From an uncultured SAR86 cluster bacterium (GTDB lineage: Bacteria > Pseudomonadota > Gammaproteobacteria > Magnimaribacterales > AG-339-G14), in NCBI GenBank assembly GCA_902632605.1, contig CACPDB010000005.1:1-64000 (forward strand): a DNA stretch of 64,000 nt, given 5' to 3'. Shown here piece after piece: positions 29,919 to 38,627 of the stretch. The notes below the pieces were generated by a model, which searched no databases, had not been told where the DNA came from, and saw only the letters and a program-made list of their open reading frames with translations. The translations under genes and the position numbers were made by a program. Positions within the stretch are counted from its first letter, which is position 1; each line of letters starts with the position of its first letter.

Positions 29919-32271
29919 ATATAGTTTTTTTTATATTTTCTTTTTCTAAATATTTTTTTACATTTTCTAATTCTTTACTTTCTTCAATAATTGTCTCTTC
30001 GCTACTTGATATATCCAAAAGGATTTTTCCCCTTAATTTACCATTAATCTGAATTGCAATTGTCATTTCGTTTCCTTCTAATTGGTCTACATCATAGGTA
30101 GGCCAATTTTCATTGTGGATAGGAGTTTTTTTACCCAAAGCTTCCCATAATTCATGACAGACATGAGGAATGATTGGCGACAACATAACTACACTTTTTT
30201 CAATTATTTCTTTAAAGAATTCATTACTCTCTTTTGAAACGGAACTTCTCAACATTTCTTTGGGAATGGCATTTAATAATTCCATAATCGCTGCGATTGC
30301 GGTATTGAATTGATTTTTATCTCCAAAGTCCGCAGAGACTTTTTTAATCGTTTGATTCAATTTAATTTTGATATCACTTAAATCCAATGACTGTACCTTA
30401 TTGTCTATAGTCTGATTGAACAAGCTTTGTGATAAAGACCAAAGCCTTTTTATAAACTTATGAGAACCATTAACTCCGGAATCCGACCATTCCAAAGATT
30501 GCTCAGGAGGTGCAGCAAACATTGAAAACAACCTTACGGTATCGGCACCATATTTCTCAATCAACTCATTAGGATTTACAGTATTTCCTTTAGATTTTGA
30601 CATTTTTGATCCGTCTTTCAGAACCATACCTTGACACAACAATCTTTTAAATGGCTCTCTCACACTAATCAAAGATAAATCATTCATGGCTTTACAAAAA
30701 AAACGCGAATACAAAAGATGAAGAATTGCATGCTCTATTCCGCCTATATATTGATCTACTGGCATCCAATAATCTGCTTCAGCATCAAGCATTGATTCTG
30801 AAGATTTATAAGAAGCAAATCTTGCAAAATACCAAGATGATTCAACAAAAGTATCAAAAGTATCTTTCTCTTTGAAATAATCTAATCCATTCAATTCGAT
30901 TTTTTCCTTGGCAATTTCTTCCTGACTTAAATCATTGAAAGGCAAAACTTCATCATCGTCATCCGATATGAACATGGGTATTGGAGCTCCCCAAGTTCTT
31001 TGTCTTGAAACTCCCCAATTTCTTAAACGAAAATTTATTTTTTTTATTCCTTTGAAACCGAAATTATTTTCTTCTGTTAAAATTGAAAAAGCTTCTTCAA
31101 AAGAAAGTCCATTTAATTTATCAGAATTAATTAAAATTCCTTTCCCTTCTATGGCACTTTCTATTTTGTCTAATTTTCCTCTACCATCGTCTATGACTTG
31201 AATGATTTCAATTTGCTCAGCTTGGGCAAACTCAAAATCTCTTTGGTCGTGACCGGGGACGCCCATTAAAGCCCCCGAGCCATAATCAGCCAAAACGAAA
31301 TTTGCCACCCAAATATCTATCTCTTTATTTGAAATGGGATGAATTGCCTTAGTCCTTAATTTGAAACCCTTTTTTTCTTGTTTTGATAAATCTGCTTCTG
31401 CTTGTTTTACATTGGAGTTATTTTTTATCCACTCAGCTAATTCGTGATTATCTTTTGCTTCTCTTTCTACAATTTCGTGATTGAAAGACAATGCCATGAA
31501 AGTAACTCCCATGATGGTATCTGGTCTGGTAGTAAATACTTCAATACTATCTTCAGAATCCGAAATAAACTTAAACAAAACTCCCTTGGATTTTCCTATC
31601 CAATTTTTCTGCATTGTCTTTACTTGTTCAGGCCAACCATCTAAAAGATCTAGATCTTTCAAAAGCTCATCAGCGTAATCGGTGATTTTAAAAGACCACT
31701 GATTGATAATTTTTTTTTCTACTGCAGCACCGGATCGCCAACCTTTACCGTCAATAACTTGTTCATTTGCGAGAACTGTTTTATCAACAGGATCCCAATT
31801 CACCTCAGTCTTTTCTCTGATAACCAGACCTTTTTCGTAAAGCTTACAAAATAACCATTGCTCCCATTTATAGTAATCTTCACTACATGTTTTTAATTCT
31901 CTCCGCCAGTCATAAGCAAAGCCCAAAGATTTAAGTTGGAGCTTCATTTCTTGGATATTTTTCTCTGTCCAATCTTTGGGCGAAACTTTATTTTGAATAG
32001 CGGCGTTCTCAGCAGGCAATCCAAAAGCATCCCAGCCCATTGGTTGTAGTACATTTTTCCCTTTTAGTCTTTGATATCTTGAAATCACATCACCGATTGT
32101 ATAGTTTCTTACATGCCCCATATGACACTGTCCAGAGGGATAAGGAAACATACTCAAACAATAAAATTTTTCTTTTTTAGGGTCGGGTTCAACCTCAAAA
32201 GACTTATTTTCTTCCCAATACTCTTGAGCCTTTTTTTCGATTAATTGAAAGTTATACTCAGTTTCTGACAT
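29884..32271 (-). CDS. leuS: Leucyl-tRNA synthetase
   Basis: A class-I synthetase charging tRNA-Leu; 795 residues, somewhat shorter than E. coli (860). HIGH-type motif PSGQCHMGH at His50-His53 and KMSKS in [11 protein letters not shown]. The CP1 editing domain is present ([16 protein letters not shown]). The C-terminal domain ends at [12 protein letters not shown]. It starts on the last base of the accC stop (TAATG) and belongs to the accB-accC-leuS-lptE-holA run. No T-box or leader is visible. Confidence 0.97.
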
Positions 32272-33611
32272 TAGGAAATATTTAGAATTTCTTTAAGATA
32301 ATTTATAGAAATATTTCCCTCAACAAAGTTTTTTTCATTAAAGATTTTATCGTGCAGATCAGTATTGGTATCAATTCCTTCAATGTACATTTCTTCAAGA
32401 GCCACTCTCATTTTTCTAATGGCGTCCAGTCGGTCTTTGGAGTGAGAGCAAATCTTGGCGACCAATGCATCATAATATTGCGGGACTTTATATCCCGAAT
32501 ATAAATGCGAGTCGGTTCTGATTCTAAATCCACCTGGAGGATGGAATTCTGTGACCAAACCTGGCGATGGAATAAAGGTCTCAGAATGTTCTGCATTTAT
32601 TCTGCACTCGATTGCATGCCCTCGACAATTTATTTCTTCCTGCGAAAATCTTATTTCTTCACCCGCTGCAATTTTAATTTGTAACTTTACTAAGTCGATT
32701 CCTGTAATCATTTCGGTAATGGTGTGTTCTACCTGAAGGCGGGTATTCATTTCAATGAAATAAAATTCTCCATTTTCGTAGAGAAATTCAAAAGTTCCCA
32801 AGCCCCTATAATTAAGTTTTTTACAAGTATCTACTGAAACTCGCCTTATCTCTTGAAGTTTTTCTTCTGGTATTCCAAAAGCTGGTGCTTCTTCAATAAT
32901 TTTTTGATTTTTTCTTTGGATGGAACAATCTCTTTCAAAAAAATGAATCACATTTCCTGCATTATCTGCAGCTATTTGAATTTCAACATGTCTAGGAGAG
33001 GTTAAAAATTTTTCTATATATATTTCATCACTACCAAAACTATTTAAAGCCTCTCTTTGAGTAAGTTGTAACTTATCAAGTAAATCAGCTTCTTCTTCAA
33101 CTATTTGAATACCTTTTCCACCGCCTCCTGCAGCGGCTTTAATGATTATTGGATATCCAATCTTTTTTGCGATTTCCATTGTCTCCCTGTTGGTTGCAGA
33201 AATTCTTCCCGTGCCTGGAACACATTGCATACCAGAACTCGAAACTGATTCTTTCGCTGAAATTTTATTACCCATGATCTTTATACTCTCTGGGTCGGGA
33301 CCAATAAATGTATATCCACTTGCTTGAACTTGTTCTGCGAAGTGATCGTTTTCTGCTAAAAAGCCTACTCCGGGATGAATGGCATCACTGTCTGTTACTT
33401 CACAGGCACTTATAATAGCTGGGATATTTAGATAACTCTTTGCAGACTCTGCTGGCCCGATGCAAACAGATTCATCTGCCATTTTTACATGTTTTAAATC
33501 TTTATCTGCTTCAGAGTAGATAGCAACTGTAGAGATTCCCATTTCTTTACAGGCTCTAAGAACTCTAAGAGCTACTTCTCCTCTGTTGGCAATGAGAATT
33601 TTTTTGAACAT
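32271..33611 (-). CDS. accC: Biotin carboxylase subunit of acetyl-CoA carboxylase
   Basis: An ATP-grasp enzyme carboxylating biotin on AccB, the first step of fatty-acid synthesis. 446 residues. It begins [16 protein letters not shown]. The glycine-rich ATP loop is [12 protein letters not shown]. The catalytic segment contains [14 protein letters not shown]. It directly follows accB (stop and start abut) and couples to leuS through TAATG. Carboxyltransferase genes accA and accD are not in the window. Confidence 0.97.
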
Positions 33612-34082
33612 TTATTCTATTACAAATAAAGGTTGACCAAATTCAACTGGTTCAGCATTTTCTATTAAAACTTGTTTGATAGTTCCAGAAGAGTCTGCCT
33701 TTACTTCATTCATCATTTTCATAGCTTCAATGATACAAAGAACATCTCCTTCTGAAATTTTATCGCCAACCGATACAAAATCTTTTGCTCCTGGATTTGG
33801 AGCTGCATAAAAGGTTCCGACCATTGGAGAGTCAATGGTTTGACCAGATATTTTTTCAACATCAGTTGATTGACCACTATCTTCTTCCGAGGAGAGATTG
33901 TTCTTAGCAGCCGATGGCTGCGGAGCAGGGGCAACAACATTGGACGTTACAATTTGCTCTTGAATAGGAATAGAAATTGCTTTGACAAGTTTTACTGACT
34001 CTTCTCCTTCTTTAATTTCAATTTCATTAAGTTGTGACTCTTCTAACATTTCTATAAGTTTTTTTACTTTTCTAATATCCAT
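33612..34082 (-). CDS. accB: Biotin carboxyl carrier protein of acetyl-CoA carboxylase
   Basis: The biotin carrier, 156 residues. N-terminal domain (1-40), a flexible Ala/Pro/Ser linker (about 45-75) and the biotinyl domain. The biotin attachment lysine is Lys122 in [19 protein letters not shown] upstream of the ATG is a strong ribosome binding site, suited to the high BCCP demand. The order aroQ-accB-accC is the standard gammaproteobacterial arrangement. Confidence 0.97.
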
Positions 34083-34094
34083 AGTTTCTCCTTA

Positions 34095-34529
34095 TTAAAA
34101 TCTATCTATTGCTAGCTCTAGAGCAGCTTTGTATCCCTGCTCACCAAATCCAGAAATTATCCCAACAGCTATATCTGAAAAATAAGACTTTTCTCTGAAA
34201 GCTTCTCTATTAAAAATATTGCTTATATGAATTTCTATAAGCGGAATGTCTACTCCAAGAATAGCATCTCTTAGTGCAACACTTGTGTGAGTGAAAGCAC
34301 CTGGATTGAACAAAATACATGATACTTTTTCTTCTTTTCCTGTTTGAATTCTATCTACAAGTTCATGCTCTGCATTGCTTTGAAAGGTCTTCAAGTCAAC
34401 TTTATTTTGTTTTGCTAATTCAATTAAATTGTTTTCTATTTGTTCCAAGGTATGTTCACCATAGATATCTGTTTCTCGCTTACCAAGTAAATTAAGATTG
34501 GGTCCATTTAAAAGAAGAAAACTTTTCAT
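34095..34529 (-). CDS. aroQ: Type II 3-dehydroquinate dehydratase
   Basis: The third step of the shikimate pathway; 144 residues, the normal type II length. N-terminal signature LLNGPNLNLLGKRETDIYG with the catalytic tyrosine, then FNPGAFTHTSVALRDA and EIHISNIFNREAFR. It precedes accB, as in many gammaproteobacteria. TAAAAT at 34537-34542 ends 7 nt from the ATG, so it may have its own promoter in addition to read-through from the DsbD-like gene. Confidence 0.96.
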   Translation of the reverse strand: MKSFLLLNGPNLNLLGKRETDIYGEHTLEQIENNLIELAKQNKVDLKTFQSNAEHELVDRIQTGKEEKVSCILFNPGAFTHTSVALRDAILGVDIPLIEIHISNIFNREAFREKSYFSDIAVGIISGFGEQGYKAALELAIDRF

Positions 34530-34550: not shown

Positions 34551-34988
34551 TTAATCGATTTTCACAGAAGATATCCTTTTTTTATCGTATTTTATGACAA
34601 TATTTTTTGTTTTACTGGGGTAACAGACCTTATTCTCATAGCATCCTTGATAGTTTAAGACTATCTTCTCCTTATCCCTGGGGGTAAATTTGATACTAAA
34701 GTTAGAGTCAACAATTTTAGTTAGACCAAAAAATACATCTTCTTTTTCCTTCTTATTTCCTTGAAACTCAAAATACATATTTGAATCATTTGAATCTTTT
34801 AAATTTATTTTATTTAGATATATGTAGGTTTTGGGCATCAAACGAAAATTTACTAAAATGTTTCGATTTTTAAGTTCAGCAGAAAGTATAAAAGCTTCAT
34901 GAACAGTAGGTATAAGATCCTTTGAGTCAAATATTTGTGCATGACTGAGAAGAGAAAAAAAGCCAACTATAAATAATTTTTTTTTCAT
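34551..34988 (-). CDS. Free-standing DsbD N-terminal (alpha) domain protein
   Basis: A 145-residue exported protein with a signal peptide (about 1-17) followed by one DsbD-alpha immunoglobulin-like domain. The redox pair is Cys116 and Cys122 in YQGCYENKVCYPSKT, the CX5C spacing of E. coli DsbD Cys103/Cys109. Full DsbD continues with eight membrane helices and a thioredoxin domain. Here a stop follows, with no sign of a frameshifted remainder before aroQ. It occupies the dsbD position of the conserved dsbD-aroQ-accB-accC order. It presumably accepts electrons from a separate CcdA/DsbD-beta protein. GGAGAA precedes the ATG. Confidence 0.8.
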   Translation of the reverse strand: MKKKLFIVGFFSLLSHAQIFDSKDLIPTVHEAFILSAELKNRNILVNFRLMPKTYIYLNKINLKDSNDSNMYFEFQGNKKEKEDVFFGLTKIVDSNFSIKFTPRDKEKIVLNYQGCYENKVCYPSKTKNIVIKYDKKRISSVKID

Positions 34989-35002: not shown

Positions 35003-36583
35003 ATGAATATTTTGGAAGTAAAAAATCTATCCATTTATTTTAATACAAATAAAGATAATCAAGTTTTAGCAGCTTCAGATATTTCTTTTTCTATTCAAAA
35101 GGGCGAAACACTTTCTATTGTTGGGGAATCGGGTTCTGGAAAAAGCATAATCGGCTTATCAATTATGAAGTTACTTCCTTATCCTCTAGCAGGTCATGGA
35201 CTAGGAAGTAAGATCCTTTTCAAAGGGAAAGATATTCTTCAAAATTCAAATTCGCGAATGCGTAAATTGCGAGGAAAAAAAATATCAATGATTTTTCAAG
35301 AGCCCATGACATCTTTAAATCCTTTTTTGAAATGCGGAGAACAAATAAAGGAGAGTATTTTTAATAGTTCTTCAAATTTTGATAAAAAAAATCGAGTTAC
35401 TGAGCTTCTAGAAGAAGTTGAATTTGCAGATCCTAAAAAAATCTTTAATTCCTATCCACATCAAATTTCGGGAGGACAAAGACAAAGAGTCATGATTGCT
35501 ATGGCTATTGCAAATGAGCCAGATTTATTAATTGCTGATGAACCAACGACTGCTCTTGATGTCAGTGTTGAACAAAGTTTATTAGTGTTATTAAAAAAAA
35601 TACAAAAAAAAATGGGAATGAGCATCATATTCATTTCTCATGATCTAAATATTGTAAGAAAAATATCAGATAGGGTTTTGGTCATGCAAAAAGGTGAGAT
35701 CAAGGAAGAAAACTCAATGAATGAAATTTTTCAAAACCCTAAGGATTCTTATACTAAAAAGCTCATTAATTCGTCTCCAGAGCCAAAGCTGGGGACTATC
35801 GATCTAAATGATGAAATTTTAAAAATCTCTTCCTTAAATTTAATTTATTCAAAAAGAGATTTTATTGGGAGGACCTCCAGTTTCTCTGCTCTTAAGAACA
35901 TAAATTTGTCTATTAAAAAAAATTCTGCATTTGGTTTGGTAGGAGAGTCTGGATCAGGAAAGTCGTCTCTTGCGAGATCGATATTAGGAATTGAAAAATT
36001 TTCGGGAGAAATATTCTTTAATGATAAAAATATCTCAAATTACAATAATAAAGAAAAAAAACATTTCAAAAAAAATTGTCAGCTTGTTTTTCAAGATCCT
36101 TTTAGCTCTCTTTCGCCAAGACAAAAAATATTCGATATTATTAAGGAGGGACTTGATATCCACGAACCTTCTTTAAACTCCTCACAAAAGAAAGAGAAAG
36201 TTTTGAAGGTTCTAGAAGACGTAAAAATGGATGAAAGTTGTCTTGTTAAATTCCCACATGAGTTTTCAGGCGGCCAAAGACAAAGAATTGCCCTTGCAAA
36301 AGTATTAATTTTAGAGCCAGAGTTTGTCATCTTAGATGAACCAACCTCTGCTCTTGATATATCTATCCAAAAAGAAATTATCAACCTTTTATTAGATTTA
36401 CAGTCAAAAAGAGGATTGAGTTATTTGTTGATTAGTCATGATCTAAAAGTCATTAATGCTATTGCAGATGAAATAGTTGTTTTAAAGTCAGGTAAAATAG
36501 TCGAACAAGGCAAGCGAGATGAAATTTTTTATGATGCTAAAGAACATTATACGAAATCCTTAATTCAGGCTGCTTATAGTTAA
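35003..36583 (+). CDS. yejF: Dipeptide/microcin-type ABC transporter ATPase with two ATPase domains (YejF-like)
   Basis: A 526-residue duplicated ATPase. Domain 1 (about 1-250) and domain 2 (about 270-526) each have Walker A GESGSGKS, the signature SGGQRQR and Walker B (LLIADEP, FVILDEP). This layout is typical of YejF, GsiA and DdpDF-type peptide importers. No permease or binding protein is adjacent, so the partners are encoded elsewhere. The start lies only 14 nt from the divergent DsbD-like gene and lacks a Shine-Dalgarno. TGTAAT ends 9 nt before the ATG. Substrate unknown, probably oligopeptides. Confidence 0.88.
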   Translation: MNILEVKNLSIYFNTNKDNQVLAASDISFSIQKGETLSIVGESGSGKSIIGLSIMKLLPYPLAGHGLGSKILFKGKDILQNSNSRMRKLRGKKISMIFQEPMTSLNPFLKCGEQIKESIFNSSSNFDKKNRVTELLEEVEFADPKKIFNSYPHQISGGQRQRVMIAMAIANEPDLLIADEPTTALDVSVEQSLLVLLKKIQKKMGMSIIFISHDLNIVRKISDRVLVMQKGEIKEENSMNEIFQNPKDSYTKKLINSSPEPKLGTIDLNDEILKISSLNLIYSKRDFIGRTSSFSALKNINLSIKKNSAFGLVGESGSGKSSLARSILGIEKFSGEIFFNDKNISNYNNKEKKHFKKNCQLVFQDPFSSLSPRQKIFDIIKEGLDIHEPSLNSSQKKEKVLKVLEDVKMDESCLVKFPHEFSGGQRQRIALAKVLILEPEFVILDEPTSALDISIQKEIINLLLDLQSKRGLSYLLISHDLKVINAIADEIVVLKSGKIVEQGKRDEIFYDAKEHYTKSLIQAAYS

Positions 36584-38303: not shown

Positions 38304-38627
38304 ATGTCCAAACCCATTGAGCTAAACGACGAAAATTTAGAGGAAACACTCTCAAACTCTTCTATACCGGTGCTTGTTGATTATTGGGCTGAATGGTGTG
38401 GACCTTGCAAAATGGTTGCTCCGGTTTTAGAAGAGCTAGCAGCCGAACTTGACGGTAAATTAACCATTGGCAAGATTGATGTAGATTCTAATAGGGATTC
38501 AGCTGCCAAACAAAACGTCATGAGCATACCCACCCTTATATTATTTAAGGACGGACAACCTATTGATCAAAGGATCGGTGCTTTAACGAAAAATCAACTC
38601 CAAGATTTCATTAACGAACATATTTAA
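38304..38627 (+). CDS. trxA: Thioredoxin 1
   Basis: The cytoplasmic disulfide reductase, 107 residues. The active site is Cys32-Gly-Pro-Cys35 in AEWCGPCKM, with the cis-proline in SIPTLILF. It is a likely electron donor for the two peroxiredoxin or thioredoxin-type enzymes in the window and, through CcdA-like proteins, for periplasmic reduction. trxA upstream of rho is a widely conserved pair. Confidence 0.97.
   Translation: MSKPIELNDENLEETLSNSSIPVLVDYWAEWCGPCKMVAPVLEELAAELDGKLTIGKIDVDSNRDSAAKQNVMSIPTLILFKDGQPIDQRIGALTKNQLQDFINEHI

Follow-up and report, generated by a model that had tools for sequence, protein, structure and literature searches.

A detached DsbD alpha domain in the dsbD slot of SAR86 bacteria, possibly served in trans by a ScsB-type hub

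In a window of 64,000 nucleotides from an uncultured SAR86 cluster bacterium (the window being the whole stretch of DNA analysed here), the 145-aa product of positions 34551..34988 on the minus strand is a real, conserved and detached canonical DsbD alpha domain. SAR86 bacteria are abundant in the surface ocean. Our reading of the whole, to which we assign a probability of roughly 0.6, is that this alpha-only protein would move freely in the periplasm as a thiol shuttle and receive its electrons in trans from a ScsB-type hub encoded on another contig (C4) of the same genome. The reading is backed by the conserved reduction of the gene, by catalytic parts that are intact, by the hub's class and by the recurring pairing of the two.

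The identity of the protein was established from an open reading frame with an ATG start, its Pfam match, its orthologs and an AlphaFold2 model. DsbD_N (PF11412) is its sole Pfam match, covering residues 28-130 with an E-value of 6.7e-12 and a score of 45.9 bits against a curated cut-off of 25. Residues 1-18 (34935..34988, minus strand), read by eye, have the basic start and hydrophobic core of a signal peptide and no lipobox cysteine, and the model (mean pLDDT 88.0) is poorly ordered with low pLDDT at this end, which fits a signal peptide. A profile built from 19 orthologs finds DsbD alpha domains of known structure, best of all E. coli 1l6p (4.8e-28). The alignment to 1l6p equates the cap-loop motif D84-V-F-F-G88 (34725..34739, minus strand) with D68-E-F-Y-G72 of E. 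coli nDsbD, and the redox pair C116-X5-C122, within YQGC....CYP (34623..34643, minus strand), aligns with C103/C109. According to the passages of PMC7347389 on the E. coli protein, the D68-G72 cap loop shields C103/C109 and opens for partners. Y57, D84, G88, G115, C116 and C122 are invariant in 19/19 rows of the ortholog alignment. The structure prediction, suggested as a check in an earlier note made from the sequence alone, returned an Ig-like DsbD alpha fold: all 18 PDB matches of the model at E < 0.001 are DsbD alpha domains of N. meningitidis or E. coli, with 6dps, 6dnv and 1jpe the closest. Fold, CX5C pair and cap loop are thus common to the SAR86 protein and to nDsbD of these two species, but there nDsbD forms the N-terminal end of a membrane protein with three domains, whereas here it is the entire secreted-type protein, 145 aa long and without a membrane domain or a C-terminal thioredoxin domain.

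On the same strand, the gene is followed by aroQ (34095..34529; PF01220, E 2.3e-55), which marks the dsbD slot, then by accB (33612..34082) and accC (32271..33611), both assigned by position and by translations recognised by eye, and by leuS. Coordinates, the PF11412 match and this synteny agree with the earlier note, which had read a dsbD-slot gene upstream of aroQ-accB-accC reduced to a secreted-type alpha domain; the codons and the alignment place the CX5C pair at Cys116 and Cys122, as it had said. Its statement that the membrane and thioredoxin domains are missing without debris is likewise borne out, since the 21 bases between the stop codon and aroQ leave no room for a membrane or thioredoxin remnant, and no DsbD_TM match lies near the gene, the single one in the genome being on another contig. 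A divergent peptide-type ABC transporter ATPase (35003..36583, plus strand; PF00005/PF08352) flanks the gene on the other side and stands outside the proposed relay. This flank varies among relatives. In f2, a SAR86 family with larger genomes, the divergent neighbour of the alpha-only gene (L036, L037 and L039) is a small gene for an extracytoplasmic protein, which Pfam calls the copper chaperone PCuAC in L036 and L039, the two tested. In some genera of f1 (L047, L048, L051 and L052) the divergent ATPase is absent and ilvD adjoins the alpha-only gene. In f3 (L038 and L040-L045) a gene for an alpha/beta hydrolase of about 335 aa (PF07859 in L041, the one tested) lies between the alpha-only gene and the ATPase, and L045 has one further gene there.

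The alpha-only frame is present in 42 of 61 genomes of the order (this genome and 60 relatives). It occurs in 25/25 of the f1-f3 genomes that are at least 90% complete, and the misses in these families are less complete genomes. A frame of about 136-196 aa lies beside aroQ in 20/20 loci of the order, which were fetched around alpha-only matches and in each of which (L036-L055) the profile confirms it. A scan of named genome contigs with the AroQ of the window retained 80 loci, 21 of them SAR86-type, including three that are not titled SAR86 and were assigned by their similarity and gene content; the alpha-only frame is present in 20 of the 21, and the remaining locus is cut by a contig end. 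Family f4 differs, with the gene in 0/8 genomes, four of them at least 90% complete, and with no alpha frame within 1.5 kb upstream of aroQ in the seven where aroQ was found. It keeps the ScsB-type hub, and most f4 genomes also keep DsbC and CcmG. Since f4 lost the alpha-only gene and kept the hub, some members of the order can do without the alpha-only protein.

DsbD_N is matched at two places in this genome and DsbD_TM at one. The second DsbD_N match belongs, together with the DsbD_TM match and a Thioredoxin_7 match, to a 670-aa protein on contig C4 (G000:C4:131167-133179, equal to L004:7168-9180), which is of the ScsB class and is not the missing half of the alpha-only protein. Sequence comparison links its N-domain to P. 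mirabilis ScsB-alpha (6c29; 7.7e-8), and a chain of 6c29 is also the top structural match for this domain in the hub model (pLDDT 76.4; 4.4e-12). The N-domain has CX3C instead of CX5C in 21/21 copies, with CX3C as a mark of the ScsB class being our own reading of the 6c29 alignment. The gamma domain resembles DsbD gamma (2fwh) and keeps WCITC. A profile of the SAR86 core scores 392-589 bits to ScsB-type and chimeric cores versus 42-129 to full canonical cores, with the separate core of genome G133 intermediate at 211 bits, and a core tree of 43 rows splits ScsB-type from canonical cores with a support of 100/100. Exactly one DsbD_TM match per genome was found in 24/24 genomes of the order searched. 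The hub shares its ScsB-alpha-like N-domain, membrane core and thioredoxin domain with the ScsB proteins of P. mirabilis, S. Typhimurium and C. crescentus, but unlike them it coexists with a free canonical alpha domain and has no ScsC beside it: no scsC was recognised by eye in the 16 kb around the hub, where its neighbours are an algH-like gene, an HNH-type gene and pyrB, the latter two named by reading. These results change two points of the earlier note. It had considered a relay split between the alpha domain and a CcdA-like protein elsewhere, and no lone CcdA was detected in this genome, the single DsbD_TM protein being an ScsB-type DsbD that is complete, alpha-like N-domain included. The relay is therefore not simply cut in two; rather, a canonical DsbD probably lost beta and gamma in a lineage that possesses a hub of a second type. 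It had also held that a full-length DsbD elsewhere in the genome would speak against its reading. Such a protein does literally exist on C4, but because it is of another class the observation of a detached alpha domain stands.

That an ScsB-type core can serve a canonical alpha domain is best argued from natural chimeras. A canonical-type alpha domain is joined to an ScsB-type core in L196, L203, L223, L225, L235, L248, L275 and L276, that is, in six of the 80 named aroQ loci plus genomes G070 and G206; named carriers include Rhodanobacter, a Porticoccaceae bin and SAR92 H231. The existence of such proteins means that the two parts are compatible in one chain, and by their sequences the chimeras suggest that the core can serve the alpha domain; from them one would expect alpha and core to be exchangeable between classes. 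In the two Rhodanobacter loci (L196 and L248) the first alpha domain lacks CX5C in a motif search, and L251 holds an ScsB-type core with its front cut off.

The arrangement is not confined to SAR86. In a class-wide draw of 184 genomes, 165 had a match to the alpha profile and 171 to DsbD_TM, and none of the 165 lacked DsbD_TM. Ten genomes with an alpha match and only weak DsbD_TM matches were examined closely, namely G000 and G016 (SAR86), G070, G114, G133, G134, G154, G190, G192 and G206; eight are alpha-only, and G070 and G206 are the chimeras mentioned above. The alpha-only gene neighbours aroQ in G114, G133, G134, G154 and G190, with a thioredoxin-like gene in between in G133 and G134, and no aroQ lies within the 10 kb fetched for G192. 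The hub candidates differ: G190 has a lone CcdA-like protein of 246 aa besides its alpha-only gene, G133 has a CcdA-like protein of 245 aa and a separate membrane-thioredoxin protein of 414 aa, and G114, G134, G154 and G192 have a single weak DsbD_TM match each, which may be of ScsB or CcdA type. The OM182 bin FRAM18_bin281 and strain LSUCC0112 each combine an alpha-only gene in the slot with one ScsB-type hub. Alpha-only genes in the aroQ slot recur in other Gammaproteobacteria, and where the hub was classed it is non-canonical. All 8/8 alpha-only genomes have a hub versus 6/19 genomes without alpha (hypergeometric 0.0014, or 0.0026 with SAR86 counted once), a comparison that was made post hoc with very small genomes among the 19 and is indicative only. 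Copies outside the slot, L111 (G107) and L113 (G217), both occur in genomes that also have a full canonical DsbD; L114 (G212), cut by a contig end, was left out of the counts, and the 281-aa alpha frame of G138 was taken as a possible contig-edge case. A single origin of all alpha-only genes is disfavoured by their scatter in the alpha tree, where they need 7 changes, yet a single clade remains compatible with the AU test (p 0.138). We lean to independent origins because of this scatter, because LSUCC0112 groups with a canonical DsbD in a starred pairing and because the host lineages differ.

In canonical DsbD, electrons pass from cytoplasmic thioredoxin through beta, gamma and alpha to DsbC, CcmG or DsbG, as outlined in PMC7347389 and PMC4460558. 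In the relay that we propose for SAR86, electrons would pass from a cytoplasmic thioredoxin, plausibly the one without a signal sequence at 38304..38627 (plus strand; PF00085, E 1.3e-32), to the ScsB-type hub on C4, the one remaining hub. Its gamma domain (WCITC) would most likely reduce the free alpha domain in trans, and this alpha domain, presumably a thiol shuttle of Ig fold with a CX5C pair and a shielding cap loop, may then reduce thioredoxin-fold acceptors such as DsbC, CcmG or the thioredoxin module of an MsrA-Trx-MsrB protein. The target search proposed in the earlier note was fruitful in part: DsbC was found in this genome, and CcmG above the cut-off was found in relatives and not in this assembly, which is 92.6% complete. 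Of the 32 genomes searched, 28 have DsbC_N and 25 have a dsbE-like match that passes the cut-off, f4 included in both cases; the loss of the alpha-only gene is therefore not tied to loss of these targets, in a co-loss test of low power given that f4 is one event. A secreted-looking MsrA-Trx-MsrB fusion is encoded at L004:13456-14763 (G000:C4), about 4 kb from the hub. According to PMC6210582, the substrates of nDsbD in Neisseria include PilB, whose N-terminal Trx-like domain it reduces, and by analogy the thioredoxin module of the fusion is a candidate target of the alpha protein, with the difference that the Trx-like domain of PilB is N-terminal and that of the SAR86 protein lies in the middle.

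Some observations count against reduction in trans. The f4 hub exists without the alpha-only gene and can thus apparently serve the cell alone; this assembly yielded no CcmG over the cut-off; the hub has an alpha-like domain of its own, so a second exit domain is not strictly needed; and the alpha-only gene evolves faster than aroQ. The last two would also fit an alpha-only protein with a new reductant or a job unrelated to the hub, for instance as partner of another periplasmic thioredoxin, in copper handling or as a redox sensor, and so would the divergent extracytoplasmic neighbour in f2, PCuAC in L036 and L039. We consider such a new role unlikely, since PCuAC does not adjoin the alpha-only gene in f1 or f3, the protein retains the CX5C pair and cap loop typical of alpha domains that exchange disulfides, and not one of the 165 genomes with an alpha domain is without a hub.

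Less probable still is that the alpha domain is a remnant of dsbD, of little use and on its way to being lost, as its disappearance from f4 (8/8) and its rate of evolution might suggest. By the NG86 method, omega of the alpha-only genes is 0.17-0.40 (15 pairs from six genomes), compared with 0.05-0.16 for aroQ (10 pairs) and 0.13-0.17 for the hub (3 pairs), and in the three nearest comparisons it is 0.19-0.24 versus 0.06-0.08 for aroQ. These values indicate purifying selection on the gene, though with weaker constraint than on aroQ next to it. Omega stays below 0.41 in all 15 pairs, the six invariant residues hold in every ortholog row, the gene is retained in all 25 near-complete f1-f3 genomes, and the fact that it has long persisted in genomes streamlined to 1.2 Mb speaks for its being used.

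With regard to the history of the gene, 15 outgroup loci (L096-L110) that encode a full-length DsbD were compared, and in 11 of them aroQ follows on the same strand, directly after dsbD in 5 and after a thioredoxin-like gene in 6. In the 59 non-SAR86 named loci, the region upstream of aroQ holds a canonical full DsbD in 33 (in one of them, L249, it is far from aroQ with another gene between), a chimera in 6, an alpha-only gene in 2, a core cut at a contig edge in 4 and none of these in 14, of which 5 have less than 2 kb of upstream sequence. Because the slot mostly holds a full canonical dsbD in outgroups, reduction in place is the simplest history, and parsimony favours the view that canonical dsbD lost its beta and gamma domains at this locus in an ancestor of SAR86. 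These same loci speak against a separate alpha gene having been inserted into the slot without ever being part of a full dsbD here, which we regard as very improbable, even with an alpha tree so weakly resolved that it gives no strong support for a position of the SAR86 clade among the canonical DsbDs. Truncation of a full dsbD by misassembly or frameshift has next to no probability and is rejected, because relatives carry the same short gene in the same slot, as the comparison of dsbD loci proposed in the earlier note brought out, and because of the short gap to aroQ and the lack of a DsbD_TM nearby. Among the loci surveyed, L203 is a contig titled Verrucomicrobiaceae that carries the gammaproteobacterial dsbD-aroQ-accB arrangement and is possibly misbinned, and many gammaproteobacterial DsbDs (L099, L104, L108, L194, L213 and others) have two tandem alpha domains, usually with CX5C in both.

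Parts of a reducing relay on separate chains are known from CcdA-type split systems such as those of H. pylori and B. subtilis, and G190 and G133 resemble these. Such systems use a lone CcdA, whereas the SAR86 hub is a complete ScsB-type protein and no lone CcdA accompanies it. Katzen and Beckwith reportedly expressed E. coli DsbD as three separate domains in 2000, and separate domains are said to be able to work together. That system was engineered with all domains from one DsbD, whereas the SAR86 arrangement is natural and its alpha domain is of another class than its hub. We found no description of a detached DsbD alpha domain in the open-licence literature, which is weak evidence of absence. 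The review PMC4460558 notes that the role of ScsB in CcmG reduction had not been analysed, and the relation of ScsB hubs to DsbD targets is the question that the SAR86 pairing touches. Families f1-f3 versus f4 offer a natural comparison, with the same hub in the presence and absence of a free alpha domain.

More tentatively, and at somewhat less than even odds in our judgment, a canonical alpha domain may part from its membrane protein and diffuse freely as a shuttle that draws on a hub of another class, so that one ScsB-type hub would feed its own alpha domain in cis and a canonical one in trans, each for its own targets, with several gammaproteobacterial lineages having reached the alpha-only or fused state independently. 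If true, periplasmic reducing pathways would be modular in a way that is absent from the literature we found.
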